Shown piece by piece: positions 4,418 to 33,407 of a stretch of DNA of 33,503 nucleotides (positions within the stretch are counted from its first letter, which is position 1; each line of letters starts with the position of its first letter). The DNA lies in the IMG/VR virus record IMGVR_UViG_3300045747_000353, positions 1 through 33,503 of that record; one strand, given 5' to 3'. The stretch comes from a virus. Position numbers and translations under genes: made by a program. A model generated the notes under the pieces. It did no database searches, had not been told where the DNA came from, and was given only the letters and a program-made list of their open reading frames with translations.

Positions 4418-4425
4418 ATTAACTG

Positions 4426-4512: not shown

Positions 4513-4520
4513 ATAATATA

Positions 4521-4612: not shown

Positions 4613-4617
4613 ATAAC

Positions 4618-4731: not shown

Positions 4732-4747
4732 AATAGTCAAAAATAAC

Positions 4748-4807: not shown

Positions 4808-4812
4808 AAAAC

Positions 4813-4893: not shown

Positions 4894-4902
4894 GAATAAA
4901 AC

Positions 4903-5022: not shown

Positions 5023-5029
5023 AAAATGA

Positions 5030-5203
5030 ATAAGCAGACTGAAATAAGAGTCAAGGGGAATCGAACCCATCATTTCCACCATCCAGGCGCTCTCATGCCC
5101 GTTTCAGTCAGGCTCTGCTTAACTTGGGGGCGTCTGCCGGGTTTGACCGGCGCCTTCGGTCATATACCGACCGATATACTTACTTTATACTAAGCTACCC
5201 ATA
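5030..5203. other. Non-canonical tRNA-like segments
   Basis: Two segments on the minus strand have tRNA parts that do not assemble. Near 5050-5066 is a T arm (ATGGG-TTCGATT-CCCCT), enclosed by an outer stem AGCAGA..CTGAAA / TTTCAGTCTGCT. Near 5126-5203 is a D-arm-like start, a 6-bp/7-nt arm TCGGTC...GACCGA lacking U33, and a T-like arm GCCGG-TCAAAC-CCGGC followed by CCCCCA. They may be further permuted, split or decayed tRNAs. Confidence 0.35.
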
Positions 5204-5207
5204 AACT

Positions 5208-5281
5208 TGGTCTCGGTAGAAAGAATCGAACTTTCGCTTCTACGTCCCAAACGTAGGGTGATACCATTTCACTACACCGAG
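5208..5281 (-). tRNA. tRNA-Pro(TGG), copy 1
   Basis: The acceptor is CTCGGTG/TACCGAG, the anticodon arm CTACG/CGTAG has loop TTTGGGA (TGG), the T loop is TTCGATT and CCA is encoded. It lies 6 nt downstream of the GIY-YIG gene stop. Confidence 0.9.
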
Positions 5282-5287
5282 ATAATA

Positions 5288-5950: not shown

Positions 5951-5954
5951 ACTT

Positions 5955-5962
5955 TATTTATG
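5955..5962 (-). promoter_or_regulatory. Late-promoter-like box CATAAATA
   Basis: Minus strand, 4 nt before the ATG of the GIY-YIG gene; same arrangement as at 2414, 4196 and 6700. Confidence 0.4.
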
Positions 5963-5971
5963 CGTAACCTG

Positions 5972-6054
5972 TGGGTAGCTGAGGAATCGAACCCCAACCA
6001 TTTCTAGTCCTGCTGTGTTCGAAACAGTGGTATGCCCAGCATACATAACTACCC
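5972..6054 (-). tRNA. tRNA-Ser(CGA)
   Basis: Class II. The acceptor is GGGTAGT/GCTACCC, the anticodon loop TTCGAAC gives CGA, a long variable region follows, the T arm is TGGGG-TTCGATT-CCTCA and the discriminator is A. The next bases are CAG, so CCA is not encoded here. Confidence 0.8.
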
Positions 6055-6062
6055 ATAAACTT

Positions 6063-6137
6063 TGGCATCCTGTGCGGGAATCGAACCCGCATTACCGACT
6101 TGAAAGGCCAGCGTTCTAACCATTAAACTAACAAGAT
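6063..6137 (-). tRNA. tRNA-Glu(TTC), copy 1
   Basis: The acceptor is ATCTTGT/ACAGGAT, the anticodon loop CTTTCAA gives TTC, the T arm is GCGGG-TTCGATT-CCCGC, the discriminator is G and CCA is encoded. Confidence 0.92.
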
Positions 6138-6169
6138 ATAAATTGGTCTGTGTACTTGCCACAATATTT

Positions 6170-6245
6170 TGGTCTCCCATGAAGGACTCGAACCTTCGAT
6201 TTCCTCGTTCCAAACAAGGAGGCATAGCCGCTAGCCCAATGAGAG
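6170..6245 (-). tRNA. tRNA-Pro(TGG), copy 2
   Basis: The acceptor is CTCTCAT/ATGGGAG, the anticodon arm CCTTG/CGAGG has loop TTTGGAA (TGG), the T arm is GAAGG-TTCGAGT-CCTTC and CCA is encoded. The HNH gene stop codon lies inside its D region. Confidence 0.9.
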
Positions 6246-6695
6246 TTTAATTTTCCATTGTTTGATATAATTTAACACTATATCTTCAATAATATGTTTG
6301 TACTTGCTGTGCCAGTAATGATGATGCGTTGGGCACAACGGAATAAGATTAGACGGATCATTGTTCTTTTTATTATGATCTAAGTGATGTACTACTACAA
6401 TCTTATCTTCTTCGCATACTACGCATTTCTTTTTATGATACGCAAAGCAAGTTGTTTGATATCGGTCTTGTTTCCAATTCCCGTGATTTTCGCCTGTCCT
6501 AAATAATTTATTAGAACAACTATGAGAACAAGTTCCTTTACTATTTTTGAAATCCTTTATAGGATTTCCACATACTAAACAATCCCTTTTATTAACGGGA
6601 TCAAGATAGCACGAGTTTGTGTGTCGCGTTACGCTATGCGGGAATATAAGTTTCTCACAATGAACGCATTTAATTTTAGTTGCGGTGTTTAACAT
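6231..6695 (-). CDS. HNH endonuclease with zinc fingers
   Basis: 154 residues. Cysteine pairs CVHC (about residue 10), CLVC and CSHSC suggest N-terminal zinc-binding knuckles. The C-terminal half has an HNH core: CVVC..., VVHHLDHNKKNNDPSNLIPLC, HHHYWH. It is likely a homing endonuclease. The start is the ATG at 6695, just after a TATAAATA box. The last 15 bases overlap the 5' end of tRNA-Pro, so insertion was tight against the tRNA. Confidence 0.9.
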   Translation of the reverse strand: MLNTATKIKCVHCEKLIFPHSVTRHTNSCYLDPVNKRDCLVCGNPIKDFKNSKGTCSHSCSNKLFRTGENHGNWKQDRYQTTCFAYHKKKCVVCEEDKIVVVHHLDHNKKNNDPSNLIPLCPTHHHYWHSKYKHIIEDIVLNYIKQWKIKLSLG

Positions 6696-6699
6696 TATG

Positions 6700-6707
6700 T
6701 ATTTATA
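6700..6707 (-). promoter_or_regulatory. T4-type late promoter box TATAAATA
   Basis: An exact TATAAATA on the minus strand, ending 4 nt before the HNH ATG and immediately after a 17-bp hairpin (6707-6750). Confidence 0.55.
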
Positions 6708-6750
6708 CAAACGGTTCAGTTTGTAGTATTTTTCAAACTGAACCGTTTGT
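6707..6750. terminator. 17-bp perfect hairpin upstream of the HNH gene
   Basis: ACAAACGGTTCAGTTTG pairs perfectly with its downstream complement around a 10-nt loop. On the minus strand it separates upstream tRNAs from the late promoter and HNH gene. It may stop early read-through or serve as an RNase III site. Confidence 0.6.
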
Positions 6751-6762
6751 CACAGATAAAAT

Positions 6763-6833
6763 TGGTGCACCTAAGGAGAATCAAACTCCTCTACTTCTGG
6801 CTTCAAATCCAGCTAGTAATATCAATCTAGCGC
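6763..6833 (-). tRNA. Poorly folded tRNA, anticodon ambiguous (TTG or TGA)
   Basis: A T arm AGGAG-TTTGATT-CTCCT, discriminator A and encoded CCA are present. The acceptor has one mismatch and several wobbles, the D loop lacks GG, and the anticodon arm is CTGG-ATTTGAAG-CCAG with an 8-nt loop. It is possibly a decaying tRNA. Confidence 0.45.
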
Positions 6834-6838
6834 ATAAA

Positions 6839-6914
6839 TGGAGCGGGTAGCCAGTATCGAACTGAGCTATTCAAGTTTGGAAGACTAGTGTGTATCCGTA
6901 AACACCTTACCCGC
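6839..6914 (-). tRNA. tRNA-Gly(TCC)
   Basis: The acceptor GCGGGTA/TACCCGC is perfect, the D arm is GTGT...ACAC, the anticodon loop CTTCCAA gives TCC, the discriminator T fits Gly, and CCA is encoded. The anticodon and T stems each have one mismatch. Confidence 0.85.
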
Positions 6915-6923
6915 ATTAAACTT

Positions 6924-6999
6924 TGGTGCAACCTACAGGGATCGAACCTGTTTCAATGGCTCTTCAGACCACCGCTATGACCACATCAGCTAAAGTTGC
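6924..6999 (-). tRNA. tRNA-Phe(GAA)
   Basis: The acceptor is GCAACTT/AGGTTGC, the anticodon loop CTGAAGA gives GAA, the T arm is ACAGG-TTCGATC-CCTGT, the discriminator is A and CCA is encoded. Confidence 0.93.
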
Positions 7000-7005
7000 A
7001 TATAT

Positions 7006-7079
7006 TGGGTTGAACTGGGGAATCGAACCCTCCCTAACTGTTTCACAGACAGTTGTGCATCCATTACACTAAGAACAAC
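7006..7079 (-). tRNA. tRNA-His(GTG)
   Basis: The anticodon arm ACTGT/ACAGT has loop CTGTGAA (GTG). Discriminator C and an extra 5' G (G-1) opposite it are His identity marks, and CCA is encoded. The acceptor TTGTTCT/AGTTCAA has two U-U mismatches. Confidence 0.85.
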
Positions 7080-7085
7080 ATTGAT

Positions 7086-7163
7086 TGGCTCCGCACTCAG
7101 GAATCGAACCTGATTAAACAGTGATTAACAGTCACGGCCTTGTCCATACTTGGCTTCTGCGGA
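7086..7163 (-). tRNA. tRNA-Asn(GTT), copy 1
   Basis: The acceptor is TCCGCAG/GTGCGGA with discriminator G, as usual for Asn. The anticodon loop CTGTTAA gives GTT, the T loop is TTCGATT and CCA is encoded. Confidence 0.88.
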
Positions 7164-7171
7164 ATAAAAAT

Positions 7172-7247
7172 TGGCTGGCAAACCTGGGCTCGAACCAGGG
7201 ACATTTTGATTAACAGTCAAACGCTCTACCAACTGAGCTATATGCCA
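7172..7247 (-). tRNA. tRNA-Asn(GTT), copy 2
   Basis: The acceptor is TGGCATA/TTTGCCA, the D arm GCTC...GAGC, the anticodon arm TTTGA/TCAAA has loop CTGTTAA, the discriminator is G and CCA is encoded. It differs from copy 1 in most stems, so it is not a recent tandem copy. Confidence 0.9.
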
Positions 7248-7254
7248 ATATTTG

Positions 7255-7328
7255 TGGTGCCCCATGACAGAATCGAACTGCCATTACCTGATTACAAAAC
7301 AGGTGGTCTACCATTAACCTAATGGGGC
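7255..7328 (-). tRNA. tRNA-Thr(TGT)
   Basis: The acceptor GCCCCAT/ATGGGGC is perfect, the anticodon loop TTTGTAA gives TGT, the T arm is GGCAG-TTCGATT-CTGTC, and CCA is encoded. It shares the mismatched 31-39 pair with tRNA-Thr(CGT). Confidence 0.88.
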
Positions 7329-7364
7329 GTAATTTTAACTTGTATAAGTAATTATACATTACTG

Positions 7365-7439
7365 TGGTAGCCTGTGCAAGATTTGAACTTGCGGCCAACG
7401 CCTTATCAAGACGCTGCTCTACCCCTGAGCTAACAGGCT
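7365..7439 (-). tRNA. tRNA-Ile(GAT), copy 1
   Basis: The acceptor AGCCTGT/ACAGGCT is perfect, the anticodon loop TTGATAA gives GAT, the T loop is TTCAAAT, and CCA is encoded. Confidence 0.92.
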
Positions 7440-7447
7440 ATACACTT

Positions 7448-7522
7448 TGGTACCCAGAACAAGAATCGAACTTGTAATTTCCGCTTATCAGGCGAATATT
7501 ATAACCATTTAATTACCCGGGC
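7448..7522 (-). tRNA. tRNA-Ile(GAT), copy 2
   Basis: The acceptor GCCCGGG/TCTGGGT uses wobble pairs, the anticodon arm TTCGC/GCGGA has loop CTGATAA (GAT), and CCA is encoded. Confidence 0.85.
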
Positions 7523-7533
7523 ATACTAAAACT

Positions 7534-7608
7534 TGGCGATGCGTGGGAGAATCGAACTCCCGTCTACGGATAGACAATCCGCGATAATAACCATTATATG
7601 AACGCACC
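7534..7608 (-). tRNA. tRNA-Asp(GTC), copy 1
   Basis: The acceptor is GGTGCGT/ACGCATC, the anticodon loop TTGTCTA gives GTC, the discriminator G fits Asp, and CCA is encoded. Confidence 0.88.
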
Positions 7609-7618
7609 TTAAAATAAC

Positions 7619-7676
7619 AGGATAGCTTTTGTCGCTAGACAACCATAGTTAGCTTTTTGTTTGCTGTAACTATCCT
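7619..7676 (-). ncRNA. 58-nt tRNA-like element 3
   Basis: The outer stem AGGATAG/CTATCCT and the flanks TTACAGCAA and AAAAG..CCTGTTATTTT match elements 1, 2 and 4. The centre forms a TTGTC-TAGC-GACAA hairpin instead of a 5-bp/7-nt arm, so an anticodon is not evident. It follows the CCA of tRNA-Gln by 5 nt. Confidence 0.45.
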
Positions 7677-7681
7677 AAGAC

Positions 7682-7755
7682 TGGTACGGGTAGAAGGAAT
7701 CGAACCTTCACTAACAGAGTCAAAGTCTGTTGTGCTACCACTACACAACACCCGA
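7682..7755 (-). tRNA. tRNA-Gln(TTG), copy 2
   Basis: The anticodon arm ACAGA/TCTGT has loop CTTTGAC (TTG), the T arm is GAAGG-TTCGATT-CCTTC and CCA is encoded. The first acceptor pair is U-U and the discriminator is A, unlike the Gln gene at 4426. Confidence 0.8.
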
Positions 7756-7763
7756 ATAAAAAT

Positions 7764-7838
7764 TGGCGCCGTAGACGAGAATCGAACTCGCCTAAATCAC
7801 ATCGACAGTGTGGTACTCTCCCAGAGAGTGACTACGGC
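7764..7838 (-). tRNA. tRNA-Asp(GTC), copy 2
   Basis: The acceptor GCCGTAG/CTACGGC is perfect, the D arm is ACTC...GAGT, the anticodon loop CTGTCGA gives GTC, the discriminator is G and CCA is encoded. Confidence 0.88.
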
Positions 7839-7847
7839 AAATATAAC

Positions 7848-7906
7848 AGGATAGTTTTTACGGTTTCAATTAAAAGTTGAATGTAATTGGTTGCTGAACC
7901 TATCCT
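7848..7906 (-). ncRNA. 59-nt tRNA-like element 4 (anticodon-like TTT)
   Basis: The outer stem is AGGATAG/CTATCCT, followed by GGTTCAGCAACC. The inner arm TTCAA-CTTTTAA-TTGAA is perfect, and its loop equals the canonical tRNA-Lys(TTT) anticodon loop, also found in the Lys tRNA at 180. There is no T arm; the tail is GTTATATTT. Confidence 0.55.
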
Positions 7907-7911
7907 AAAAC

Positions 7912-7986
7912 TGGTGGAGGCCGGGGGTATCGAACCCCACTAGACATGATCATTGCAAGTGAACACCGCAGCCCTCTGCTGCCCCC
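7912..7986 (-). tRNA. tRNA-Ala(TGC)
   Basis: The acceptor is GGGGGCA/GGCCTCC with one mismatch, the D arm GCAG...CTGC, the anticodon loop CTTGCAA gives TGC, the T arm is TGGGG-TTCGATA-CCCCC and CCA is encoded. Confidence 0.8.
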
Positions 7987-7991
7987 ATAAC

Positions 7992-8067
7992 TGGAATCAC
8001 GTACGGGAATCGAACCCGCCTGCACAGGATGAAAGCCTGCTGACCTAACCCAGAAGTCCAACGTGAT
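7992..8067 (-). tRNA. tRNA-Glu(TTC), copy 2
   Basis: The acceptor ATCACGT/ACGTGAT is perfect, the anticodon arm GCAGG/CCTGT has loop CTTTCAT (TTC), the T loop is TTCGATT and CCA is encoded. The discriminator is T, where copy 1 has G. Confidence 0.85.
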
Positions 8068-8074
8068 ATAAAAC

Positions 8075-8149
8075 TGGCATACCCCCTTGGATTCGAACCA
8101 AGCCTAACGGTTTTGGAGACCGACGTGCTGCCGCTGACACTAGGGATAC
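8075..8149 (-). tRNA. tRNA-Trp(CCA), normal order
   Basis: The acceptor is GTATCCC/GGGGTAT, the D arm GTGT...GCAC, the anticodon loop CTCCAAA gives CCA, the T arm is CTTGG-TTCGAAT-CCAAG, the discriminator is G and CCA is encoded. Its D arm resembles that of the permuted Trp gene at 4618. Confidence 0.9.
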
Positions 8150-8208
8150 ATAACTAATTGAAGTCCTGCTTGACATTGTAGTGCAGGTAACTGTGTCGTC
8201 TTCAAACT

Positions 8209-8298
8209 TGGTGGATGCGATAGGAGTTGAACCTATACAGTCTTATTTGTACGCGGGTGGGTTACAGCCACTTGAGCTCACCAATGCTCGGCACATCC
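8209..8298 (-). tRNA. tRNA-Tyr(GTA), copy 1
   Basis: Class II. The acceptor is GGATGTG/CGCATCC, the D arm GAGC...GCTC, the anticodon loop CTGTAAC gives GTA, a long variable region follows, the T loop is TTCAACT and CCA is encoded. Confidence 0.85.
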
Positions 8299-8303
8299 AT
8301 ATA

Positions 8304-8387
8304 TGGTGGACAGTGTTGGATTCGAACCAACGTGCAGTTACGAGCGGATTTACAGTCCGCCACCTTCGGCCTCTCGGTCAACTGTCC
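8304..8387 (-). tRNA. tRNA-Tyr(GTA), copy 2
   Basis: Class II. The acceptor GGACAGT/ACTGTCC and the anticodon arm GCGGA/TCCGC with loop CTGTAAA are perfect, the T arm is GTTGG-TTCGAAT-CCAAC and CCA is encoded. It is the first clear tRNA of the array in transcription order. Confidence 0.95.
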
Positions 8388-24095: not shown

Positions 24096-24101
24096 TATTT
24101 A
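24096..24101 (-). promoter_or_regulatory. Late-promoter-like box TAAATA
   Basis: GGTAAATA on the minus strand, overlapping the bilin reductase stop codon and 5 nt before the ATG of the 555-residue protein. Confidence 0.35.
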
Positions 24102-24770
24102 CCCTATTTCAGGAAACAGCACTTCTTCGATAAAATCCTTAACTAACGCTTTACTTAACCCTAAACTTTCCATTACACGAGGGCTATGTGGATTTTGCTT
24201 CTGATAGTGGCAATAGCGATTCTGTGCCATATGAAAATCAGCACCACTTTGTTGTGTTAACCCTACATTAGATAGGTAGTAATCTAAGTTATCGAGTCCT
24301 GCTTGAACAAACTGATTTAGCTCATCTACTTTATCTACCGCGCCCACTGCAATCATTGCAGGACTAAAGATTGCCGCCGCCCAGTCAGGCAATTCTCGTG
24401 GCTTTTTCCAGTTTAATTCTGTTACACGTTGATCAAACCATTGCATCATGTAATGATTTGGGTCACCTGCATTACTAAAATCGTGGAATCCGCCACTCAT
24501 CCTGTTTGGCCCACACACCATATCAAATCCGAATATAGGACTATTATCGTTCGTATGCGGGAAAATGCATACATGCATCATCCATAAGTTTTTAGTTTGT
24601 CGAGCATCTACAATATCAATGTGTGCTCTACGGTATGCCATACTATAGTACACATGATTAGCCCAAGGAAACTTGCTAGCCGCAGGCTCAGTTACATGCT
24701 CTCCAGTGGATTTGAATCGCTTGATAATTTCTTCAGAGCAAGCAATTGCTTTTTCAAATATAATGCTCAT
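24099..24770 (-). CDS. Ferredoxin-dependent bilin reductase (PcyA/PcyX/PebS family)
   Basis: 223 residues, near the size of viral bilin reductases. WMMHVCIFPHT...PIFGFDMVCGPNRMSGGFHDF matches the family core. H66 and D83 keep the 17-residue spacing of PcyA His88 and Asp105, the proton donors to biliverdin. The C-terminal YCHYQKQNPHSPRVMESLG also fits. It reduces biliverdin IX-alpha with electrons from ferredoxin, giving phycoerythrobilin or phycocyanobilin; the product cannot be told by eye. Related PcyX enzymes are known from marine viral sequences. It overlaps the heme oxygenase gene by 4 bp, so substrate supply is coupled. Confidence 0.88.
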   Translation of the reverse strand: MSIIFEKAIACSEEIIKRFKSTGEHVTEPAASKFPWANHVYYSMAYRRAHIDIVDARQTKNLWMMHVCIFPHTNDNSPIFGFDMVCGPNRMSGGFHDFSNAGDPNHYMMQWFDQRVTELNWKKPRELPDWAAAIFSPAMIAVGAVDKVDELNQFVQAGLDNLDYYLSNVGLTQQSGADFHMAQNRYCHYQKQNPHSPRVMESLGLSKALVKDFIEEVLFPEIG

Positions 24771-25315
24771 TCTTCAACTGGAAGTGGAAGAGCTGCATCG
24801 TATTCCTTCATAATACGGATACCCCAGTCAAACGCAATATTAGCTTCATCAGCCATGCTGTCATTTAACTTATTACGGATAGTTACTTTAAGTTTTTCAA
24901 CATCATCAAAATCAAGATTACGATGTGGGAACGGGAGAAGTTTGCGAATAATTTGGCCACCGTGCAAATCACCCATGTGCCACACATAAAGATGTGCCAT
25001 AATTTTATCCGGCTGTCCTACTAGATCTAGTATGTAGCGACAATAATCGATGGTAACTTTATTAATTTTCGGAAAGTTGCCATTGCACATTTCTTTTGCG
25101 TCGAGATAAAGATTTACAGCACGTTCAACTTCTAAGCAATCAAGTGTTAGCTTTTCGTATCGTGCGACATTTTCAATTGAATCATAAAACACTGATTTTT
25201 GATAAGTGTAATCTGCCCAGACTTCATGAGTCATACGACCCTTAATTGCAGCTCGCATAAAGTTAGTGCGTTCTGCTTCTGTGTGCTTATCTTTAGTTAA
25301 ATCTTTTAAACTCAT
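24767..25315 (-). CDS. Heme oxygenase
   Basis: 182 residues. LTKDKHTEAE places the proximal heme ligand at H11; HLYVWHMGDLHGGQII (residues 108-123) is the distal-helix signature, reading GDLHGG where many bacterial enzymes have GDLSGG. It opens heme to biliverdin, CO and iron using a reductant such as ferredoxin. It overlaps clpS upstream and the bilin reductase downstream by 4 bp each, so the three are translated as one unit. Confidence 0.9.
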   Translation of the reverse strand: MSLKDLTKDKHTEAERTNFMRAAIKGRMTHEVWADYTYQKSVFYDSIENVARYEKLTLDCLEVERAVNLYLDAKEMCNGNFPKINKVTIDYCRYILDLVGQPDKIMAHLYVWHMGDLHGGQIIRKLLPFPHRNLDFDDVEKLKVTIRNKLNDSMADEANIAFDWGIRIMKEYDAALPLPVEE

Positions 25316-25614
25316 TCTGTTTCTACTTTAATTAATAGTGGATGCCCATATTGACGAGCAAGGCCAGTAGCCTCGACACCCTTCTGCTCTGCGATTTCAA
25401 AAGGATAAATTCCTGCAACTGCATAACCATCATTATGAATTTTCATAGTTAAGTCCAGTGCAATACTTTCAGAATGTCGAAACACCTTAATTAACATTGC
25501 CACTACAAAATCAACTGGAGTCTTGTCATCGTTATACACAACAACTTTATATTTGCTAGGTTCCTGAATTTTAATTTTATTAGTAGCGCGGGTTTTAGTA
25601 ATCGTTTCTGACAT
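25312..25614 (-). CDS. clpS: ClpS-like adaptor protein
   Basis: 100 residues from the ATG preceded by AGGAATTAC. KYKVVVYNDDKTPVDFVVAML is the ClpS core with the N-degron pocket residues (NDD, DF), and a second half KIHNDGYAVAGIYPFEIAE completes the fold. It binds ClpA and hands over proteins with hydrophobic N termini for proteolysis. In a phage it may retarget host ClpAP. A TTAAATA late-type box lies at 25635-25640 and a hairpin just beyond, separating it from hsp20. Confidence 0.9.
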   Translation of the reverse strand: MSETITKTRATNKIKIQEPSKYKVVVYNDDKTPVDFVVAMLIKVFRHSESIALDLTMKIHNDGYAVAGIYPFEIAEQKGVEATGLARQYGHPLLIKVETE

Positions 25615-25634
25615 TGTAATTCCTATTATGTGTG

Positions 25635-25640
25635 TATTTA
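25635..25640 (-). promoter_or_regulatory. Late-promoter-like box TAAATA before clpS
   Basis: GTTAAATACA on the minus strand, 20 nt before the clpS start with AGGAA between. Confidence 0.4.
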
Positions 25641-25643
25641 ACA

Positions 25644-25665
25644 AAGTGGGGGTCTCCCCCCACTT
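25644..25665 (-). terminator. GC-rich hairpin between hsp20 and clpS
   Basis: AAGTGGGGG pairs with CCCCCACTT around a 4-nt loop. No long U-run follows on the minus strand, but it lies immediately after the hsp20 stop and before the clpS late box, so a terminator or mRNA-end stabiliser is likely. Confidence 0.6.
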
Positions 25666-25668
25666 ATT

Positions 25669-26100
25669 TTAAGTAGATTTAATTGAGATCTTTTTAGGTT
25701 TCTTTTCTTCGGGGATGTTGCGTATTAAGTTGATAAGCAGTAAGCCATCTCGTATTTCAGCATCCCCGACTTCCAGAAACCCTTCCAGTCTAAAGAATCT
25801 TTCAAAGTTCCGAGCACTTAACCCTCTATGCATGTATTCACCTGTAGGGTGCTCGGTTGCTTTTGTGCCAGTTACAATCAAATGATTGTTTTGTACAGTT
25901 AGCTCAATCTCATCTTTGCGGAAACCCGCGACTGCGATTTGAATCTCGTAATTATCCTCATCATGTTTAATGACATTATGTGGAGGGTAGTTATTTTGGA
26001 TTTGGTTAGCAAATCGTGATTCGAAATCGTTAATGATTTGATCAAAACCTACAAGGGCTCTGTTTAGAGAGGTGGTATCGAAACGTACTAATTGATTCAT
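25669..26100 (-). CDS. Small heat-shock protein Hsp20
   Basis: 143 residues from the ATG preceded by AAAGGAG; an in-frame ATG at 26169 lacks such a site. The alpha-crystallin domain spans about residues 35-125, with YEIQIAVAGFRKDEIELTVQNNHLIVTGTK, ARNFERFFRL and DGLLLINLIR (the family's usual A-x-x-x-n-G-v-L line is changed). It binds unfolding proteins without ATP. Hsp20 is common in T4-like marine phages. A GATAAATA box lies at 26180-26187. Confidence 0.92.
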   Translation of the reverse strand: MNQLVRFDTTSLNRALVGFDQIINDFESRFANQIQNNYPPHNVIKHDEDNYEIQIAVAGFRKDEIELTVQNNHLIVTGTKATEHPTGEYMHRGLSARNFERFFRLEGFLEVGDAEIRDGLLLINLIRNIPEEKKPKKISIKST

Positions 26101-26179
26101 AGTTTTCTCCTTTATTAAGCAAGAATCATATTGGGCACCATTGCCCGGTTTTTGTAGAACCCGAAGCATTCTACTATTT

Positions 26180-26187
26180 TATTTATC
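26180..26187 (-). promoter_or_regulatory. Late-promoter-like box GATAAATA before hsp20
   Basis: Minus strand, within the 3' end of the nucleotidase gene, about 80 nt before the hsp20 start. Confidence 0.45.
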
Positions 26188-26674
26188 CCTGAAAGATCTC
26201 ATCTAGCCAAATTTTGCATTCTGGCCATTGTTTGTAAATGTGCGATCTGCCGCCTGCATCACGCCATTCAATACAGTTACTTGTTCTATCGTCAATCAAA
26301 ATATCGCCGGGTTTACAGTGTCGATATTTGTCATGGCTAAAAGGCCCAAAAAATACAGGAATTCCTTCAAAGTGCTTGTGTGCCCACCAAACTTTGTCTT
26401 GTGCTGCAAACGGTACAGAATAGTCATGCGGTAGTGCTGATAGGAATGCTAAGTTGTCTGCTTTACCGTTTGCTACTTGATCCCGACAGTATTGCACAAG
26501 TTCTGTAGCACCGGGTTTTAGATCAAGTTTTGAATAGAATCGATGATCATTCTTTAGTCGAGCCCAATCGTAGTTAGGAATGCGTTCAACATTGCCCCAC
26601 TTCATACCTAAGTAATCTTGGGCATGCGTGATCCAATCTGCAACCACATCGTCCATATCTAAGTAAATATCCAT
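26183..26674 (-). CDS. HAD-type 5'(3')-deoxyribonucleotidase-like protein
   Basis: 163 residues. MDIYLDMDDVVADW has the DxD nucleophile pair of the haloacid-dehalogenase fold (D6, D8). LSALP contains the motif II Ser and KYRHCKPGDILIDDRTSN the motif III Lys and motif IV DD. The overall plan fits NT5C-type nucleotidases that dephosphorylate (deoxy)nucleotides. It may help redirect host nucleotide pools. AGGAAC precedes the start. It ends the small-gene cluster upstream by 8 bp. Confidence 0.85.
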   Translation of the reverse strand: MDIYLDMDDVVADWITHAQDYLGMKWGNVERIPNYDWARLKNDHRFYSKLDLKPGATELVQYCRDQVANGKADNLAFLSALPHDYSVPFAAQDKVWWAHKHFEGIPVFFGPFSHDKYRHCKPGDILIDDRTSNCIEWRDAGGRSHIYKQWPECKIWLDEIFQG

Positions 26675-26681
26675 TTTGTTC

Positions 26682-26939
26682 CTAAGTTGACCATTTCAAT
26701 ATAAACAGTATAACATCTTTTTCGTTACTTAGCAACCAGTTGCTACCCAACCCTTGTATTTTCCCCCCACAGTGCTTATCTGCCCATTCTTTAATATCAA
26801 CCCGCGAATAGTGATCTGCCGATTTACATTGTATCCACCCTTGTTCGCATAACATTCGAGTCATAATTTCAAAGTCGATTTCTTTTCGGATCTCGTCTGC
26901 TAACATATCGGAAAGTTCTTTAGATATTGACTTTGACAT
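26682..26939 (-). CDS. Small 'F..EKD..MF.LRW' family protein 1
   Basis: 85 residues from the ATG at 26939, with GGAG 8 nt upstream inside the previous gene's end. The C terminus NWLLSNEKDVILFILKWST carries the family signature and EWADKHCGG the upstream W block. The N terminus is helical and charged. It is the last member of the sixteen-gene minus-strand cluster. Function unknown. Confidence 0.75.
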   Translation of the reverse strand: MSKSISKELSDMLADEIRKEIDFEIMTRMLCEQGWIQCKSADHYSRVDIKEWADKHCGGKIQGLGSNWLLSNEKDVILFILKWST

Positions 26940-26941
26940 TA

Positions 26942-27166
26942 TTAGCTCCACAGCAATGCGAACATTGTTTTAGTTGCGTCATCGACATACGAATCGTGTA
27001 TCTCTGCCTGCCACTGTATCTTTTGATTATCTGGAGTAACTGATACCCACATAGACCAACCTTCGCCGCGATACATGCCACCTGATTGGCGCTGCGGCGG
27101 CCCTACATTTGATGCGAGCCAGTTTGCAATAGAATCTACTTTGCCGGAATTAATTTTTATCTTCAC
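26942..27166 (-). CDS. Small cluster protein 2
   Basis: 74 residues starting with GTG in a GTGA stop/start overlap with gene 3. NWLASNVGPPQRQSGG is the W block; the end DDATKTMFALLWS is a shortened version of the signature. Trp- and Gln-rich middle. Function unknown. Confidence 0.7.
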   Translation of the reverse strand: MKIKINSGKVDSIANWLASNVGPPQRQSGGMYRGEGWSMWVSVTPDNQKIQWQAEIHDSYVDDATKTMFALLWS

Positions 27167-27450
27167 GTTCTTGCCAATTCTAATAATATTTTGTATTGTT
27201 CGTATGCCTTCATTACTGTGGTGTTGTTCTTCCTAACAATAGTGTCTGCTTCTATTTCGTACAACGTAGTAGCAAGCTCTGTAAACTTTTGGCCATCCAT
27301 TGTCATTTCAACAGTTGAACCTCTAAACACCTTTGTCGGATAACTACCCATAACTTCAACATTAACAGTATCATACTTAACTTCAAGTCGTTGCGGATAG
27401 TAAGTTTGTTGAAAACTTCTATAAACTTCTTCGTTCACGGAGTACTCCAT
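27163..27450 (-). CDS. Small cluster protein 3 (lacks the C-terminal signature)
   Basis: 95 residues, starting 16 bp inside the previous gene. No W block or F..LRW tail is visible; it ends in a helical stretch (MKAYEQYKILLELART). It is the one clear outsider in the cluster. Function unknown. Confidence 0.65.
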   Translation of the reverse strand: MEYSVNEEVYRSFQQTYYPQRLEVKYDTVNVEVMGSYPTKVFRGSTVEMTMDGQKFTELATTLYEIEADTIVRKNNTTVMKAYEQYKILLELART

Positions 27451-27665
27451 CGCAACACGAACATTGTAGCATCTTTTGGATTTTTAAAAAAGAATGTTGG
27501 GTCCTTTTGAATCCAGCCGCATTTCCAACGGCCTTTGCTATTACTTTTGCCAAAAGTATCTTCGCACCATTGTCGTTGCTCCGGTACCTTTCCAACATGC
27601 AGCAGGCCACCGGTAATCGCTACTTTTATTTTATACTTGCTTCGACGTGTTGTGTGTTTTAGCAT
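27435..27665 (-). CDS. Small 'F..EKD..MF.LRW' family protein 4
   Basis: About 76 residues from the ATG at 27665, which has GGGAG at the right distance. A basic N terminus, then QWCEDTFGKSNSKGRWKCGW and FFFKNPKDATMFVLRWSTP. Both conserved blocks are present. Function unknown. Confidence 0.75.
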   Translation of the reverse strand: MLKHTTRRSKYKIKVAITGGLLHVGKVPEQRQWCEDTFGKSNSKGRWKCGWIQKDPTFFFKNPKDATMFVLRWSTP

Positions 27666-27667
27666 AA

Positions 27668-28027
27668 TCATACTCCCCACCTTAGTAAAAACATTAGATA
27701 ATCTTTCTCATCGCGGAAATGAATACTTGATTCGTATCTGTGCCACCAACGACTCCAAGCATCTGGACGTTTATCATGTTTTCCAAATTGTTTTGCACAC
27801 CATTCATCTACTTCATCATAGAAGGTTGCATCAAACTCTGCTATGTACCATTTAGCACGGCTGAATTTGTACTTCTTGTGGAACTTAACAATGTTAGGAT
27901 CCTGTGTTGTCATTTTTTGCGTGAATATTAATCCTGCAGAAAGCGGCATAGGCTGTACGCCTATAATTTGTTGTGCAATCAACGATGGCATCATTTTTGT
28001 TATCATCGGCAGTATTACGTTTTTCAT
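27668..28027 (-). CDS. Chimeric small protein: T4-type gp23 capsid segment plus family tail
   Basis: 119 residues from the ATG in an ATGA overlap. Residues 8-34 (ITKMMPSLIAQQIIGVQPM...AGLIF) match the gp23 segment of T4-like phages, where T4 reads VRRAIPNLIAFDICGVQPM...GQVF: P.LIA..I.GVQPM....G..F is shared. The rest, EWCAKQFGKH...W and HFRDEKDYLMFLLRWGV, is the ordinary cluster-family domain. The capsid piece is too short to fold as a capsomer. Its presence suggests recombination or a decoy/assembly-binding role. Confidence 0.8.
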   Translation of the reverse strand: MKNVILPMITKMMPSLIAQQIIGVQPMPLSAGLIFTQKMTTQDPNIVKFHKKYKFSRAKWYIAEFDATFYDEVDEWCAKQFGKHDKRPDAWSRWWHRYESSIHFRDEKDYLMFLLRWGV

Positions 28028-28218
28028 TTTTGTTTCAATATAAAAAATGTTAAGTATTTTTCGGGAATATCTAACTCCCATTTAATATTAGGAACCGGAA
28101 CAACTGACATTGCCTCTACTATCTCAAGACACTTTAGTTTATCAATATCGTATTCAACACACATCTTGATTAAATTTATTGCTGTCATACACGGCAACGG
28201 ATCTAAATCTACTATCAT
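28024..28218 (-). CDS. Small cluster protein 6 (degenerate signature)
   Basis: 64 residues, ATGA overlaps at both ends. It ends PEKYLTFFILKQK, a worn form of the EKDxxMFxLRW tail, and lacks the W block. Function unknown. Confidence 0.65.
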   Translation of the reverse strand: MIVDLDPLPCMTAINLIKMCVEYDIDKLKCLEIVEAMSVVPVPNIKWELDIPEKYLTFFILKQK

Positions 28219-28475
28219 TTCCCCCACCTTATTAAAAACATTGTCTTATCGCTTGCTTTAACAAAATACATCCATCCTGGATATCCATTTCCCCTATACC
28301 ATGTATCTGTTGCGAACGTTTGCTCACACCACTTGCTCATTGCTAAAATCTCTGCATCGTAATAATTGATTAGAGATGCACGATGTGGCATAACTACCCG
28401 ATTCACTCCGTAATCTACAACAAGCGAATCTTTTGGGATTACTTTTATCTTCCGTTTCTTCTTGGGCTTTTTCAT
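28215..28475 (-). CDS. Small 'F..EKD..MF.LRW' family protein 7
   Basis: 86 residues, ATGA overlaps. A very basic N terminus (KKPKKKRKIK) might bind nucleic acid. KWCEQTFATDTWYRG and MYFVKASDKTMFLIRWGK are the two conserved blocks. Function unknown. Confidence 0.78.
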   Translation of the reverse strand: MKKPKKKRKIKVIPKDSLVVDYGVNRVVMPHRASLINYYDAEILAMSKWCEQTFATDTWYRGNGYPGWMYFVKASDKTMFLIRWGK

Positions 28476-28669
28476 TTGCCGGCCCATCGTAGTAGAAACA
28501 TCAAATGATCCTTTTCGCTATAAAAATAAATTCTTCCGATCCTAACAAACCATCTTCCTGCACTTACTGGACCTAAATTGTCCGTTAGCCAAGTTACTAA
28601 CTCTTTTGGTACACCCACTGACTGGTTTAATTCTACAATATGGTATTCGTGATTTACTTTAATTTCCAT
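28472..28669 (-). CDS. Small 'F..EKD..MF.LRW' family protein 8
   Basis: 65 residues from the ATG at 28669, two bases after the previous stop. TWLTDNLGPVSAGRWFVR and IYFYSEKDHLMFLLRWAGK form nearly the whole protein, so it is close to the minimal family domain. Confidence 0.78.
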   Translation of the reverse strand: MEIKVNHEYHIVELNQSVGVPKELVTWLTDNLGPVSAGRWFVRIGRIYFYSEKDHLMFLLRWAGK

Positions 28670-28671
28670 TA

Positions 28672-28926
28672 TTATTTCCCCCACCTTAATAAAAAGAGTG
28701 TTAAATCTTGCTTGTCTCTAAATCGTATTTCACCCCACATTATATCATCTTTCCACCGTGGACGAGATGTATCAACTACTAATCCTGGAGCTCCGTATAT
28801 TTCCTTGCACCATGTCCGCATGTCGTCCCGTTTCGCGTTCTCTGCCCTTAGTGCAGCGCCCCAAGCATTAAAGGCAGCTACCCAATAACCGAATTCAGTA
28901 AATTCTTGATATACATGAAATTTCAC
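28672..28926 (-). CDS. Small 'F..EKD..MF.LRW' family protein 9
   Basis: 84 residues starting with GTG in a GTGA overlap. TWCKEIYGAPGLVVDTSRPRW and IRFRDKQDLTLFLLRWGK are the conserved blocks; the N terminus has an aromatic- and Ala-rich segment. Function unknown. Confidence 0.76.
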   Translation of the reverse strand: MKFHVYQEFTEFGYWVAAFNAWGAALRAENAKRDDMRTWCKEIYGAPGLVVDTSRPRWKDDIMWGEIRFRDKQDLTLFLLRWGK

Positions 28927-29150
28927 AAGTGTCCAAACTTTAAAGCAAACACAAGGGCGGGACGTTCGTTTTCAAACTGAAAGATTGTCCCGCCACCTTG
29001 CAGCCATTGCACATAGTATCTGTCAAAATCGCTTGCTTCGCTTATATTTGTACTGCACCAATTAAACATTGCATCAGTACTATCTTTAACTTTCACTTTA
29101 TGGCGGAAATTAGGATTAGACATGCCGCCCTCGCTATGATATCTTTTCAT
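28923..29150 (-). CDS. Small cluster protein 10 (variant signature)
   Basis: 75 residues, ATGA overlap with gene 11. NWCSTNISEASDFDRYYVQW is the W block; the tail is FQFENERPALVFALKFGHL, with LRW replaced by LKF. An alternative start lies at 29123. Function unknown. Confidence 0.72.
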   Translation of the reverse strand: MKRYHSEGGMSNPNFRHKVKVKDSTDAMFNWCSTNISEASDFDRYYVQWLQGGGTIFQFENERPALVFALKFGHL

Positions 29151-29392
29151 CGCTTTATAATATAATTGCTATACTGTAATATAAACATACTTGCATGCTT
29201 TTCAGTGTAAAATGAAAATACTGTGTGTCTTATTGTAAAGTCAAACGTATCGTTTTCATACCTCTCTGATATTCCCCCGGGGTTGAAACTAAAATCAAAG
29301 TCCACTCCTTGTACCATTCCTTGCTTTCGCAAAGACTGAACAATATCAGTTACTTCATTAGCTTTCTTCTTCCATAGCTTAACTTCGATCAT
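29147..29392 (-). CDS. Small cluster protein 11 (variant signature)
   Basis: 81 residues. The tail VFSFYTEKHASMFILQYSN keeps F..EKH..MF.L but ends QYSNYIIKR instead of RW. The W block is lost. It starts 14 bp inside gene 12. Confidence 0.72.
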   Translation of the reverse strand: MIEVKLWKKKANEVTDIVQSLRKQGMVQGVDFDFSFNPGGISERYENDTFDFTIRHTVFSFYTEKHASMFILQYSNYIIKR

Positions 29393-29594
29393 CTACATGT
29401 AATTCTCTTAAATTAGGATGACTGCCCCATCGTAGTAAAAACAGTGCTACATCTTTTTCTTCTGCAAAGTAGAACCCGTTATGACCTGCATCCCATCGTT
29501 TACCGATATTACCAAACTGGTCTCGTGCCCATTCGAAGTATTCGTTCTCCAACGGAGCAATACTCGTATCTCTAATAAAAAATTTAAAATCCAT
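29379..29594 (-). CDS. Small 'F..EKD..MF.LRW' family protein 12
   Basis: 71 residues from the ATG at 29594 with GGAG upstream. EWARDQFGNIGKRWDAGHNG and FYFAEEKDVALFLLRWGSH are present, followed by a unique 12-residue tail, so the signature need not be C-terminal. Confidence 0.76.
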   Translation of the reverse strand: MDFKFFIRDTSIAPLENEYFEWARDQFGNIGKRWDAGHNGFYFAEEKDVALFLLRWGSHPNLRELHVDDRS

Positions 29595-29832
29595 TAAACT
29601 CACTCCACCTTAATACAAACATCGACAAGTGCTTTGCTTCTTTAAACGCATAGGTTGTATTTCCAAACATACTATGCATAACCCAAATCTTGCCGTCCAT
29701 ACCTTCCCAAGTTTTTGGAGTTGCATAAGACCAACCGCCTAATCCAATATTTTCATGACACCATTTTTCCATTGCTGGATGCTGATGATAGCGTTCTTTG
29801 CCAAATGTAATCCAGCTTGCTGTATTGTTCAT
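29584..29832 (-). CDS. Small 'F..EKD..MF.LRW' family protein 13
   Basis: 82 residues, ATGA overlap with gene 14. KWCHENIGLGGWSY and YAFKEAKHLSMFVLRWSE carry the two blocks. Function unknown. Confidence 0.77.
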   Translation of the reverse strand: MNNTASWITFGKERYHQHPAMEKWCHENIGLGGWSYATPKTWEGMDGKIWVMHSMFGNTTYAFKEAKHLSMFVLRWSEFNGF

Positions 29833-30218
29833 GAATATTTCAATGCTATTAACACAGCATCCTTATCATTGTTAGTTCCTACAAACACCTGGTCACCTCC
29901 ACTAAACTCATTAAAGTGAAAGCATCCGTCCCAGCGATTCTTTTCGCCTCTTGCAAAGTGATACACTGTGCAATTATCTAAGTCTCGTCGAGGGTACATA
30001 TACTGTTGAAAGTCTTTATTAGGTACCCAACCATGCGGTTCGTTGTGATCAAATATTTTGGTAGACACAGGAAGTATATACTTAAAGTTCATAAACATAT
30101 TTTCAATTGTATTAGCACGGCGAACAATATTTTCTTCTTGCCACTTACGCCAATCTCGTTCTTGCTTTGATAAGCCAGTTCGCCATGTAAGCCACTTGTC
30201 TTTTATGTACGCTTTCAT
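29829..30218 (-). CDS. Larger cluster protein 14 (variant signature)
   Basis: 129 residues, ATGA overlaps at both ends. The N terminus WLTWRTGLSKQERDWRKWQEENIVRRANTIENMF is Trp/Arg-rich and helical; the tail VFVGTNNDKDAVLIALKYS is a distant form of the signature. Function unknown. Confidence 0.75.
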   Translation of the reverse strand: MKAYIKDKWLTWRTGLSKQERDWRKWQEENIVRRANTIENMFMNFKYILPVSTKIFDHNEPHGWVPNKDFQQYMYPRRDLDNCTVYHFARGEKNRWDGCFHFNEFSGGDQVFVGTNNDKDAVLIALKYS

Positions 30219-30493
30219 GCCCACCTCAATATAAACATAGTACGATCTGCTTCATTTCGAAACCAAAATCGTTGGTCATTCATATACCAACGTTGACATC
30301 CTTCGTCCCAACAGCTTGCAGGTTCTCCAAATATTTTAGTTGTCCACTTCTCCATCTCTTGCCAGTTCGCAAACACTGGCCTTACAACAAAATACTTTGC
30401 ACCGTGCAACCGCTTTTCTTCTATATACATTTTCGATTCCGGAATGTAAGGGCAATATATCGAAGCATGCAATGTTGTTAGTACCCTGACCAT
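30215..30493 (-). CDS. Small 'F..EKD..MF.LRW' family protein 15
   Basis: 92 residues; an internal ATG at 30430 is an alternative start. KWTTKIFGEPASCWDEGCQRW and FWFRNEADRTMFILRWA are the two conserved blocks. Function unknown. Confidence 0.75.
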   Translation of the reverse strand: MVRVLTTLHASIYCPYIPESKMYIEEKRLHGAKYFVVRPVFANWQEMEKWTTKIFGEPASCWDEGCQRWYMNDQRFWFRNEADRTMFILRWA

Positions 30494-30792
30494 GCTAGTG
30501 CCAACATAGAATAAAGTTTTTCATGAACATCAAACTTATTAGCATCCACTGGCCAATTGGTACTCGGATGTTCATACCAAAGTTCTTTAGATTGATTTCG
30601 AATCCAATAGCCTGCTTGCGACGATACTAATACAGTATACCACATTGAACCATCTACTACTGCTTTATCAATCATTGTAATCTTTCTAGTTAGTATATTC
30701 CGCGCATGTACATAGTACATGCTCTTTCCAGTATGCCGTGCGGAATATACTATAGGCATCTCGCTGTTTTCTATCGACACAACTTCTTTCAT
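30478..30792 (-). CDS. Cluster protein 16 (weak signature)
   Basis: 104 residues, first gene of the cluster, joined to the metallophosphoesterase gene by an ATGA overlap. The tail KFDVHEKLYSMLALAWSGY weakly recalls the signature; the middle (YTVLVSSQAGYWIRNQSKELWYE) is beta-rich. Function unknown. Confidence 0.7.
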   Translation of the reverse strand: MKEVVSIENSEMPIVYSARHTGKSMYYVHARNILTRKITMIDKAVVDGSMWYTVLVSSQAGYWIRNQSKELWYEHPSTNWPVDANKFDVHEKLYSMLALAWSGY

Positions 30793-31625
30793 ACTTCAAA
30801 GTAGAATGCAGGGTCGAAGATCGTTGCTTGAAACTCATGTCCTGCATAACCACGAGGGTTACTCATCACATGCGTATCGCCAATCATGTAATCAACTGGA
30901 TCATGCATGTGTCCGTGAACCCATGCTTGAATCTGCGGATGATCCATAATGAACTCGGTTAAATTACTATGATAACCAAAATTCATATGGAAGTCCCGAC
31001 CGTCTTGATAATGCGGAGCAATACTCAACGGGCTAGGTGCATGATGACTAATAACAACAACCTTATCGTTTTCGTGACAGTCCAAAAACAACTTTAACGA
31101 TTCTACAGTCTCTTTGAATACACCTGCAACATAAGCAGGAGTGAACTTGTTTGTATAGTATGAGTCACCGTAAGGCAACTGAATCTTAATACTATCGCCG
31201 TGCTTGATTGAAGAGAAATCGTACATACTTTGCTCAACAACTTGCATAGTCAGCGGATCACGCTTGTTCATATCAGTCCAGAACGTTCCCCCGAAGAAAT
31301 GCACATCCTCGATCTGCATACTTTCTGCTTCGAGGATACGGACGTTATCGGGCATTTCACGCTTTAAGCGTGCCGGAGTATCTTGGTAACTATTGCTGTA
31401 ATGTTCATGATTACCCAAAACGTAAATTACCTGTTCGTACTTAATGAATTCTTCGTTGATAAAACGACGATACCGATCTGCAAGGAACGTGTCCTTTTTA
31501 GTATTATCTGCAAGACGTAAGTGCCCTGCTTCCATAATATCACCCGCAGCGATAAGGACATCTCCGCCAGGAAGAATCAGATCTTCAAAATTCAAATGCA
31601 CATCGGAAATCAAATTAATTTTCAT
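30789..31625 (-). CDS. Calcineurin-like metallophosphoesterase
   Basis: 278 residues. The metal-binding motifs run in order: D8-x-H10 (ISDVH), G28-D29, G71-N72-H73-E, SHHAP and GHMH. This is the full two-metal site, so the enzyme should hydrolyse a phosphomonoester or diester (nucleotide, cyclic nucleotide or similar). The substrate is not apparent. AAGGAT precedes the start, and a strong sigma70 promoter (31659-31687) lies 34 nt upstream. It heads the operon containing the sixteen small genes. Confidence 0.92.
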   Translation of the reverse strand: MKINLISDVHLNFEDLILPGGDVLIAAGDIMEAGHLRLADNTKKDTFLADRYRRFINEEFIKYEQVIYVLGNHEHYSNSYQDTPARLKREMPDNVRILEAESMQIEDVHFFGGTFWTDMNKRDPLTMQVVEQSMYDFSSIKHGDSIKIQLPYGDSYYTNKFTPAYVAGVFKETVESLKLFLDCHENDKVVVISHHAPSPLSIAPHYQDGRDFHMNFGYHSNLTEFIMDHPQIQAWVHGHMHDPVDYMIGDTHVMSNPRGYAGHEFQATIFDPAFYFEV

Positions 31626-31658
31626 GGCTATCCTTAAAAATATTACTCTCTTAATACA

Positions 31659-31687
31659 ATTATAACAGGTATTACCTAATCTGTCAA
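31659..31687 (-). promoter_or_regulatory. Sigma70-type promoter with palindromic spacer
   Basis: TTGACA, 17 nt, TATAAT on the minus strand. The spacer contains the perfect palindrome AGGTATTACCT. It should drive the metallophosphoesterase and the sixteen small genes early in infection. Confidence 0.85.
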
Positions 31688-32181
31688 GTCTAATCTGTAG
31701 TTAGAAGCGAGCAAAGCTCACTTGAGATGTCGCTTATCGCTCATCTCTTTTATAGAGAGAAGATATATTATCCAGATTCTGGAGTCAGATTTTGCCCTTT
31801 TTACGGGCAAAAAAAATGAAATTATCCGAGTTCCTTTCATCGGTAGCATGTGGCGTGTATAGAGGCGGTCATCCGGTACCTCGAGCCATGATCTTATATA
31901 TGACGGCGGACTGTACATGCAAGCTACCACATATACAGCCGTGGGAGTACTACTCCCTCATTTAGCCTTTGGTGAAACATATTCAAACAGCAAAATCGGT
32001 TGTACGTAGGCGTATCCGATCATCATCCTTGCGGGTAGTTGCTAAGTACTTTTTTTGACCAAAAAGAATTTACTGTCCCCGTGACCCTAGGTCCGGTTAT
32101 CATAGGCACACGGAATAAGCCTGTGCAAGCATCATGTCATAGTTGTTTATTATATAACAAATCTTAAAGTACATGTTTGGT

Positions 32182-32187
32182 TAAATA
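32182..32187 (+). promoter_or_regulatory. Late-promoter-like box TAAATA before hemA
   Basis: GGTTAAATACA on the plus strand, 8 nt before the hemA ATG. No Shine-Dalgarno is visible between, so translation from such a transcript would be leaderless. Confidence 0.4.
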
Positions 32188-32195
32188 CATATATT

Positions 32196-33407
32196 ATGCT
32201 CAAACCAAAAACACAAGACGCAATTTCAGCCAGCTTAGAAAAACTTAAAACAGACGGAAACTATCGTGTGTTCACAGATATCCTAAGAGAACGTGGAAAG
32301 TTCCCTAACGCAATTTACTATGGACGTTACAATATTAAACACATTACTAATTGGTGTTCAAACGACTACTTAGGTATGGGACAACACAAAGTAGTGCTCG
32401 ATGCTATGCATACCGCTTTGGATCATGCCGGTGCCGGCGCCGGGGGGACACGCAACATTTCCGGAACAACTCACTATCATGTTGCACTAGAAAGCGAACT
32501 TGCGAAATTACACGATAAAACATGTGCTTTGACCTTTACAAGTGGCTATGTTGCTAACCAGTCAACTCTGTCGGTTTTAGGTCTTTTATTGCCTAATGTC
32601 CACTATATTTCAGACGAAAACAATCATAATTCGATGATTGTAGGCATTAGATCTAGTAAAGCACCTAGAACAGTGTGGCGTCACAATGATCTCAAACATT
32701 TAAAAGAAATCCTAGAAAGCTTAGACCCCGCTTGCCAACCCATAATTGCAATGGAGGGAGTGTATAGTATGGACGGAGACAAGGGAGTGATATCGGAGGT
32801 ATGTGAGATTGCCCGTATGCACGGAGCAATGGTCTATGTTGACGAAGTTCACGCAGTTGGGTTATATGGAAGTCGTGGCGCAGGCATTGCTGAAGAACAG
32901 AAATGTGTCGACGGAGTGGATGTTATCCAAGGTACCCTTGCTAAAGGATTTGGAGTGCAAGGTGGGTACGTTGCAGGCAGCAGAGATCTAATTGATATGA
33001 TCCGGTCCTATGCACAAGGGTTTATCTTTTCCACAAGTATGAGTCCAGTATTGTGCGCAGGTGCTCTTGCAAGTGTTAAGTATGTACAAGATCATCCAAG
33101 CTTAAGAGAAAAGATTTTTCAAGTTGCTCAATCGACAAGAGAGCATCTAACAGCAGCAGGATTGGAAGTAAATCCGTTAAGCATCGGCGGACACATCGTT
33201 CCTGTTATGGTGCGCGATGCTAAAAAGTGTAAATCAATAAGCGATTGGTTGTTAGAAGAAAAAGCAATATATGCCCAACCTATTAATTATCCAACAGTGG
33301 GTTGGGGTGACGAACGGCTTCGACTATGTCCTACGCCCAATCATTCAGAAGCAGATATAGATTATCTTACAAAAAGCCTTAAGGAGGCATTCAATGGACA
33401 AAATTAA
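32196..33407 (+). CDS. hemA: 5-aminolevulinate synthase (ALAS)
   Basis: 403 residues, the full bacterial length. YRVFTDILRERGKFPNA, GAGAGGTRNISGTTHYH and YVDEVHAVGLYGSRGAG (D216 for the PLP ring nitrogen) match ALAS. K250 in GTLAKGFG is the PLP lysine, and NYPTVGWGDERLRLCPTPNH is the ALAS C-terminal line that separates it from KBL and BioF. It condenses glycine with succinyl-CoA, the committed step of heme synthesis in alphaproteobacteria. LAKGFG differs from the usual LGKAFG. It probably supplies heme for the heme oxygenase and bilin reductase 7-8 kb away. The next gene starts 14 bp before its stop. Confidence 0.95.
   Translation: MLKPKTQDAISASLEKLKTDGNYRVFTDILRERGKFPNAIYYGRYNIKHITNWCSNDYLGMGQHKVVLDAMHTALDHAGAGAGGTRNISGTTHYHVALESELAKLHDKTCALTFTSGYVANQSTLSVLGLLLPNVHYISDENNHNSMIVGIRSSKAPRTVWRHNDLKHLKEILESLDPACQPIIAMEGVYSMDGDKGVISEVCEIARMHGAMVYVDEVHAVGLYGSRGAGIAEEQKCVDGVDVIQGTLAKGFGVQGGYVAGSRDLIDMIRSYAQGFIFSTSMSPVLCAGALASVKYVQDHPSLREKIFQVAQSTREHLTAAGLEVNPLSIGGHIVPVMVRDAKKCKSISDWLLEEKAIYAQPINYPTVGWGDERLRLCPTPNHSEADIDYLTKSLKEAFNGQN

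Follow-up and report, generated by a model that had tools for sequence, protein, structure and literature searches.

What does a phage gain from carrying genes for both the synthesis and the breakdown of heme? The question is raised by the virus record IMGVR_UViG_3300045747_000353, which was analyzed as a single stretch of 33,503 bases (the window) and bears at its right end genes for 5-aminolevulinate synthase (ALAS), heme oxygenase (HO), and ferredoxin-dependent bilin reductase (FDBR). The window represents part of a large phage genome, probably from fresh water. We read its gene set, with slightly better than even confidence, as the published valaS/hemO/pcy set in its "broken" arrangement, with heme turnover rather than one particular pigment as the selected benefit; such turnover would act through the release of iron and the removal of biliverdin.

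Heme and bilin enzymes of the window

An initial annotation had located the three enzyme genes and described them as a phage-borne heme-to-bilin module. The coordinates were correct in the list of open reading frames (ORFs), and the genes stand among the following features.

24099..24770, minus strand: FDBR (223 aa) with the PcyX-type residue Asp52, in the S/N-type clade; matches to PF05996 and 5owg
24767..25315, minus strand: HO (182 aa), PF01126; overlaps the FDBR start by 4 bases
25312..25644, minus strand: ClpS adaptor, a TTG-start ORF with an ATG 10 codons in, PF02617; overlaps the HO start by 4 bases
25669..26169, minus strand: Hsp20 small heat-shock protein, first in the conserved unit and in conserved order; PF00011, 65.4 bits (cut-off 20.8)
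30789..31625, minus strand: metallophosphoesterase, divergent from ALAS; PF00149, 38 bits (cut-off 21.5)
32196..33407, plus strand: ALAS (403 aa) of the viral clade, TIGR01821, with K250

All three enzyme identities proved correct, each scoring above its curated family cut-off and far beyond chance: FDBR with PF05996 (66.4 bits, cut-off 31, E 3.8e-18), HO with PF01126 (54.6 bits, cut-off 23, E 1.7e-14; best solved heme oxygenase, E 1.3e-8), and ALAS with the ALAS equivalog TIGR01821 (535.8 bits, cut-off 338.55, E 6e-161). Alignments with relatives bore out that the active-site residues are intact. In HO, His11, Gly119, and Gly120 were present in 93/93 rows and Asp116 in 92/93, which we take to be the proximal histidine (His11) and the distal-helix motif GDxxGG (Asp116 and Gly119/Gly120); family score, His11, and distal-helix residues mark the window protein as HO-1-type. 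The pyridoxal phosphate (PLP) lysine K250 of ALAS was found in the window, in 74/74 viral rows, and in 23/23 alphaproteobacterial rows. FDBR residues H50, H66, and D83 (His74, His88, and Asp105 of Synechocystis PcyA) were invariant in 115/115 rows; roles of PcyA Glu76, His88, and Asp105 are described in PMC10151467.

In the ALAS tree, 32 viral representatives were split from 24 bacterial ones with a support of 100, in agreement with the published tree, and the window grouped with ten other viral representatives (support 100). The loss of His342 of R. capsulatus ALAS serves in print as an argument for raised flux into heme, and the window has Lys344 at this position. As a phage sign the loss was rejected in this sample: the histidine was present in just one of 74 viral and one of 23 alphaproteobacterial rows, and its absence should not be taken as phage adaptation because 22 of the 23 alphaproteobacterial rows also lack it. 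Raised flux into heme is a plausible effect of the virus and one that the authors of PMC11480375 also propose; in their view, vAlaS keeps infected cells supplied with tetrapyrroles.

The three genes are present as located; they do not form one operon, because ALAS is read rightward on the opposite strand, approximately 6.9 kb from the HO start, and a small-ORF array and the phosphoesterase gene separate the two. The local unit is Hsp20–ClpS–HO–FDBR, read leftward, in which 24 bases lie between the Hsp20 end and the start of the longest ClpS ORF, and the last three genes each overlap by 4 bases. Adjacent HO and FDBR with ALAS approximately 6.9 kb away correspond to the "broken" form of the published cassette.

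The initial annotation had implied that HO and PcyX were known from viruses and that ALAS was the new element. This novelty fell away, since phage ALAS, HO, and FDBR were published together in 2024 for marine and freshwater phages; some were reported to carry alaS by itself, others a cassette of all three genes or a broken cassette in which hemO and pcyA/X lie together with valaS nearby (Wegner et al. 2024, PMC11480375). The three-enzyme combination is therefore already published and the idea of the annotation is largely in print; the window contig may itself be among the data of that study. As described in the main text of PMC11480375, ALAS of the freshwater phage CB_2 complemented E. coli and synthesized 5-ALA, its HO was active, its FDBR formed phycocyanobilin (PCB), which the authors explained by the absence of the PcyX-specific Asp55, and HO with FDBR could load a phytochrome. 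These assays by others support the likelihood that the three window enzymes have activities of the known kind. The window and the CB_2 cassette have in common the types of their three enzymes, a "broken" layout in which HO and FDBR lie together and ALAS is close by, and the PLP lysine K250; by published description, the CB_2 FDBR is a proven PcyA without the PcyX aspartate, whereas the window FDBR has it. The hemO–pcyA–alaS island of Bradyrhizobium ORS278 unites the same three enzyme types, but is bacterial and has an adjacent phytochrome gene (PMC11480375).

Bilin reductase types and the selected benefit

The reductase had been assigned to the FDBR family, and Pfam, the solved-structure match, and the tree all placed it there, on the PcyA/PcyX side. 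Its best solved relative was PcyX (5owg, EBK42635; E 6.3e-50), while the best PcyA entry reached only E 1.2e-13. Viral-contig scans retained as confirmed relatives 80 of 186 matches for FDBR, 80 of 494 for ALAS, and 34 of 34 for HO. At the position that separates PcyA (Glu76) from PcyX (Asp), phage FDBRs showed D, E, S, N, or H; the 115 distinct rows of the alignment, which include two PDB references and five alphaproteobacterial rows and omit matches covering <75% of the query or <190 aa, were distributed as D 59, E 46, S 7, N 2, and H 1. The window has Asp52 here, as 5owg has D, and not the glutamate of PcyA; the alignment equates Asp52 with Asp55 of PMC11480375 if 5owg carries an 8-residue tag, as we assumed.

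Two FDBR trees were built, one from the 85 rows that remained of the 115 after clustering at 88% and one from 63 rows without Synechocystis PcyA and alphaproteobacterial PcyA. In the 85-row tree, the phage E rows and the single H row formed a clade with a support of 100. The window FDBR, with its aspartate, clustered with the S and N rows (support 93 in the 85-row tree and 99/93 in the 63-row tree), and both 5owg and the FDBR of pelagiphage Mosig belong to another clade. By its active-site residue the window enzyme thus resembles PcyX, but it comes from a branch of which we know no assayed member; a single clade of all D rows was not rejected. Alphaproteobacterial FDBRs were rejected as a source, as an FDBR occurred in a single genome of 289, the chosen center itself.

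The product of the window FDBR is probably phycoerythrobilin (PEB), judging from the active-site residue. We consider it doubtful, though possible, that the enzyme does not make PEB but PCB or a bilin reduced by two electrons, such as its Ser/Asn clade mates may yield, and that the aspartate is an ancestral leftover. The grouping with S/N rows (99/93) speaks for it, as do pre-PcyA enzymes without Glu76, which give other bilins, although not PCB (PMC10151467); on the other side, the window has the aspartate aligned to the residue named PcyX-specific, and a single origin of all D rows was not rejected in the 63-row tree (p-AU 0.305).

The occupant of the FDBR slot varied among loci whose ALAS is 80–85% identical to that of the window: S-type in L002, L006, and L009, E-type in L003 and L025, and D plus E in L083, L096, and L163. 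We favor heme turnover over a particular pigment because such close ALAS relatives carry differing active-site types in this slot. The change of type argues against one exact pigment as the trait under constant selection; host tuning would explain it as well. In the same relatives, HO, ClpS, and Hsp20 were only approximately 50–67% identical to those of the window, and thus the FDBR is not alone in diverging.

A rival reading is that the bilin itself is the point: PEB or PCB would be the chromophore of a photoreceptor or bilin-binding protein, either the host's or the phage's, and the FDBR types would be tuned to the host. We consider this unlikely, as the type differs between close ALAS relatives; furthermore, no bilin-binding partner turned up, though none was searched for. 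Phytochrome loading by CB_2 HO and FDBR, shown by others (PMC11480375), and the variety of FDBR types with their D+E pairs are in its favor. Tandem FDBR pairs followed HO in four distinct lineages (L083, L096, L163, and L240), with the D-type first and the E-type second in 4/4, and phages with such pairs may produce two different bilins or carry out the reduction of a single one stepwise, in two stages.

Three observations weigh against the favored reading of heme turnover by a PcyX-like enzyme. The tandem D+E pairs could mean that specific pigments matter. The window FDBR falls with S/N-type enzymes and not with assayed PcyX, which makes PEB uncertain as the product. No Fer2-family ferredoxin gene was found in 41 of 42 related records, which are fragments, Mosig being the sole exception. 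The discoverers of the gene set describe the heme-breakdown genes as enigmatic in purpose (PMC11480375). The natural D/E/S/N series and the D+E tandems provide a ready panel for asking what sets the product choice of bilin reductases, and the same panel could tell whether a particular pigment is needed by phages or heme removal suffices.

ALAS was present in 17 of the 42 related records, four of which came from the ALAS scan; as the records are incomplete, they do not show absence in the rest. Conversely, FDBR was present in 8 of 48 ALAS records, which is not a fair rate, as the search covered 48 of the 80 ALAS loci and omitted 24 short loci and 8 whose contigs were already known to carry an FDBR. 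Matches to ALAS from tblastn against the phage collection (19 records, 25.6–35.4% identity) had named products of the Kbl/BioF type, with the rest unannotated, and were not counted as ALAS.

Hsp20–ClpS neighborhood of the heme oxygenase

HO and FDBR are grouped with ClpS and Hsp20 (25312–26169), two genes that the initial annotation had left unnamed. The window ClpS matched PF02617 at 89 bits (cut-off 23) and the solved ClpS 3dnj at E 3.8e-16, and is a ClpS by these scores and by N38, D39, and H70, which were present in 60/60 rows and presumably form the N-degron pocket. The 83 FDBR representatives (clustered at 88%) comprised 65 phage-type ones with at least 2.6 kb of upstream sequence, 14 phage-type ones with less, and four alphaproteobacterial ones; the row of the window itself is among the 14, because its locus (L001) is cut. 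HO, ClpS, and Hsp20 lay upstream on the same strand in 51 of the 65 and were not so arranged in 14; the 65 count three tandem loci twice and include three rows from phage Mosig or contigs of metagenome-assembled genomes (MAGs). A separate ClpS scan yielded 19 loci, with the full Hsp20–ClpS–HO–FDBR unit in 15 and Hsp20–ClpS only in four.

We did not find this conserved proteostasis neighborhood of HO–FDBR in print in the literature searched. ClpS occurs nowhere in the main text of Wegner 2024 (PMC11480375; supplements and figures outside the scope) or in that of Chen 2020 on pmoC-phages, where Hsp20 is discussed. No paper joining at least four of the themes phage, ClpS, Hsp20, heme oxygenase, and auxiliary metabolic genes was found in full-text literature (supplements outside the scope), and among 13 papers joining three of the themes ClpS, heme oxygenase, phage, and bilin reductase, ClpS was mentioned in two, one on plastid Clp and one on Corynebacterium. 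The main text of PMC11480375 likewise mentions no ClpS and Hsp20 neighbors of its cassettes. Mosig resembles the window in having HO directly upstream of FDBR, but its FDBR is 40% identical to that of the window, neither ClpS nor Hsp20 is annotated beside its HO, and no ALAS match was found in its genome.

We think it somewhat more probable than the reverse that the link of Hsp20–ClpS to these genes stems from inherited synteny or from an insertion hot spot and is functionally unrelated to heme. Hsp20–ClpS occurred without HO/FDBR in four of the 19 ClpS loci, in two of which (L209 and L213) a ClpX-like ORF lies upstream by eye, and of the phage-type representatives whose upstream sequence sufficed, 14 were without the linked pair, Mosig among them. 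Against this, the order was kept across the D, E, and S/N FDBR clades and down to identities of 32% for HO and 43% for FDBR to the window proteins. That the four genes are one functional device, with phage ClpS passing host proteins to host Clp and the phage controlling heme supply and breakdown together, is in our estimate very improbable. In such a device, ClpS would deliver hemoproteins, or the C5-pathway enzyme glutamyl-tRNA reductase (GluTR), to the host Clp protease; HO–FDBR would destroy heme; phage ALAS, where present, would replace host control of 5-ALA synthesis; and the FDBR slot would hold a D-, E-, or S/N-type enzyme or a D+E pair, possibly with undescribed product specificity. 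Plant GluTR binds ClpS, ClpF, and ClpC, leading to its proteolysis, and bacterial GluTR is turned over via Clp and Lon (PMC6597238). This turnover does no more than justify a test of the ClpS link; the neighborhood is a new testable lead that would tie these genes to proteolysis.

In L209 and L213, a short basic S21-like ORF lies by eye between the ClpX-like ORF and Hsp20–ClpS, as a phage protein-quality-control cluster. Contigs labeled as Halobacteroidaceae, Pirellulales, Neomarinimicrobiota, and Rickettsiales MAGs (L216–L219) bear Hsp20, ClpS, HO, and FDBR, with a gap separating HO and FDBR in L218 and L219; they are probably phage contigs binned into MAGs.

Host hints and flanking features

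Two further features lie between the phosphoesterase and ALAS genes.

31659..31687, minus strand: sigma-70 consensus TTGACA-17-TATAAT, 12/12 match; a consensus match only
31985-32131, minus strand: Polynucleobacter-1 RNA beside ALAS; RF01718, 87.5 bits (cut-off 37), E 1.2e-17

The RF01718 RNA was also found in five of 48 related phage records; on the L084 contig, it lies approximately 300 bases past the 3' end of ALAS, as reckoned from coordinates. The Polynucleobacter-1 RNA is listed for Burkholderiales and for fresh water or estuary (Weinberg 2010). Its presence hints at a freshwater habitat and perhaps a Burkholderiales host for the window phage. A Burkholderiales host would use the C5 route. 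A search for PF04896 (pmoC), bearing on the idea of a methanotroph-phage host, gave 0/42 in related records and was uninformative, as control genomes were equally silent. A noncoding RNA conserved between the phosphoesterase and ALAS was rejected for six aligned relatives; the window aligns poorly there. The metallophosphoesterase is next to ALAS in many relatives as well.

The sigma-70 consensus (31687–31659, minus strand) is a possible start of the leftward unit. Sigma-70 sites showed no excess in the region overall (34 found vs. 38.4 expected), and the T4-type late promoter motif gave no signal (67 matches with at most one mismatch vs. 85.3 expected). Megablast of window positions 9000–33503 against the phage collection returned zero matches.

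The window bears 28 tRNA genes on one strand at 180–8387, interspersed with small ORFs including GIY-YIG-like and HNH-like ones (by eye), and a series of sugar- or glycan-type genes at approximately 9.5–20.5 kb, as read from the ORF list. The array between HO and ALAS (26682–30792, minus strand) consists of approximately 15 small overlapping ORFs by eye, encoding 60–130 aa. Its proteins share a C-terminal motif like F..E.D..MF.LRW, for which a strict pattern gave seven matches vs. none in 20 shuffles, and none of the eight proteins checked had a PHROG match better than E 0.004. Members of the array were also found in some relatives (seven in L017 and four in L002).

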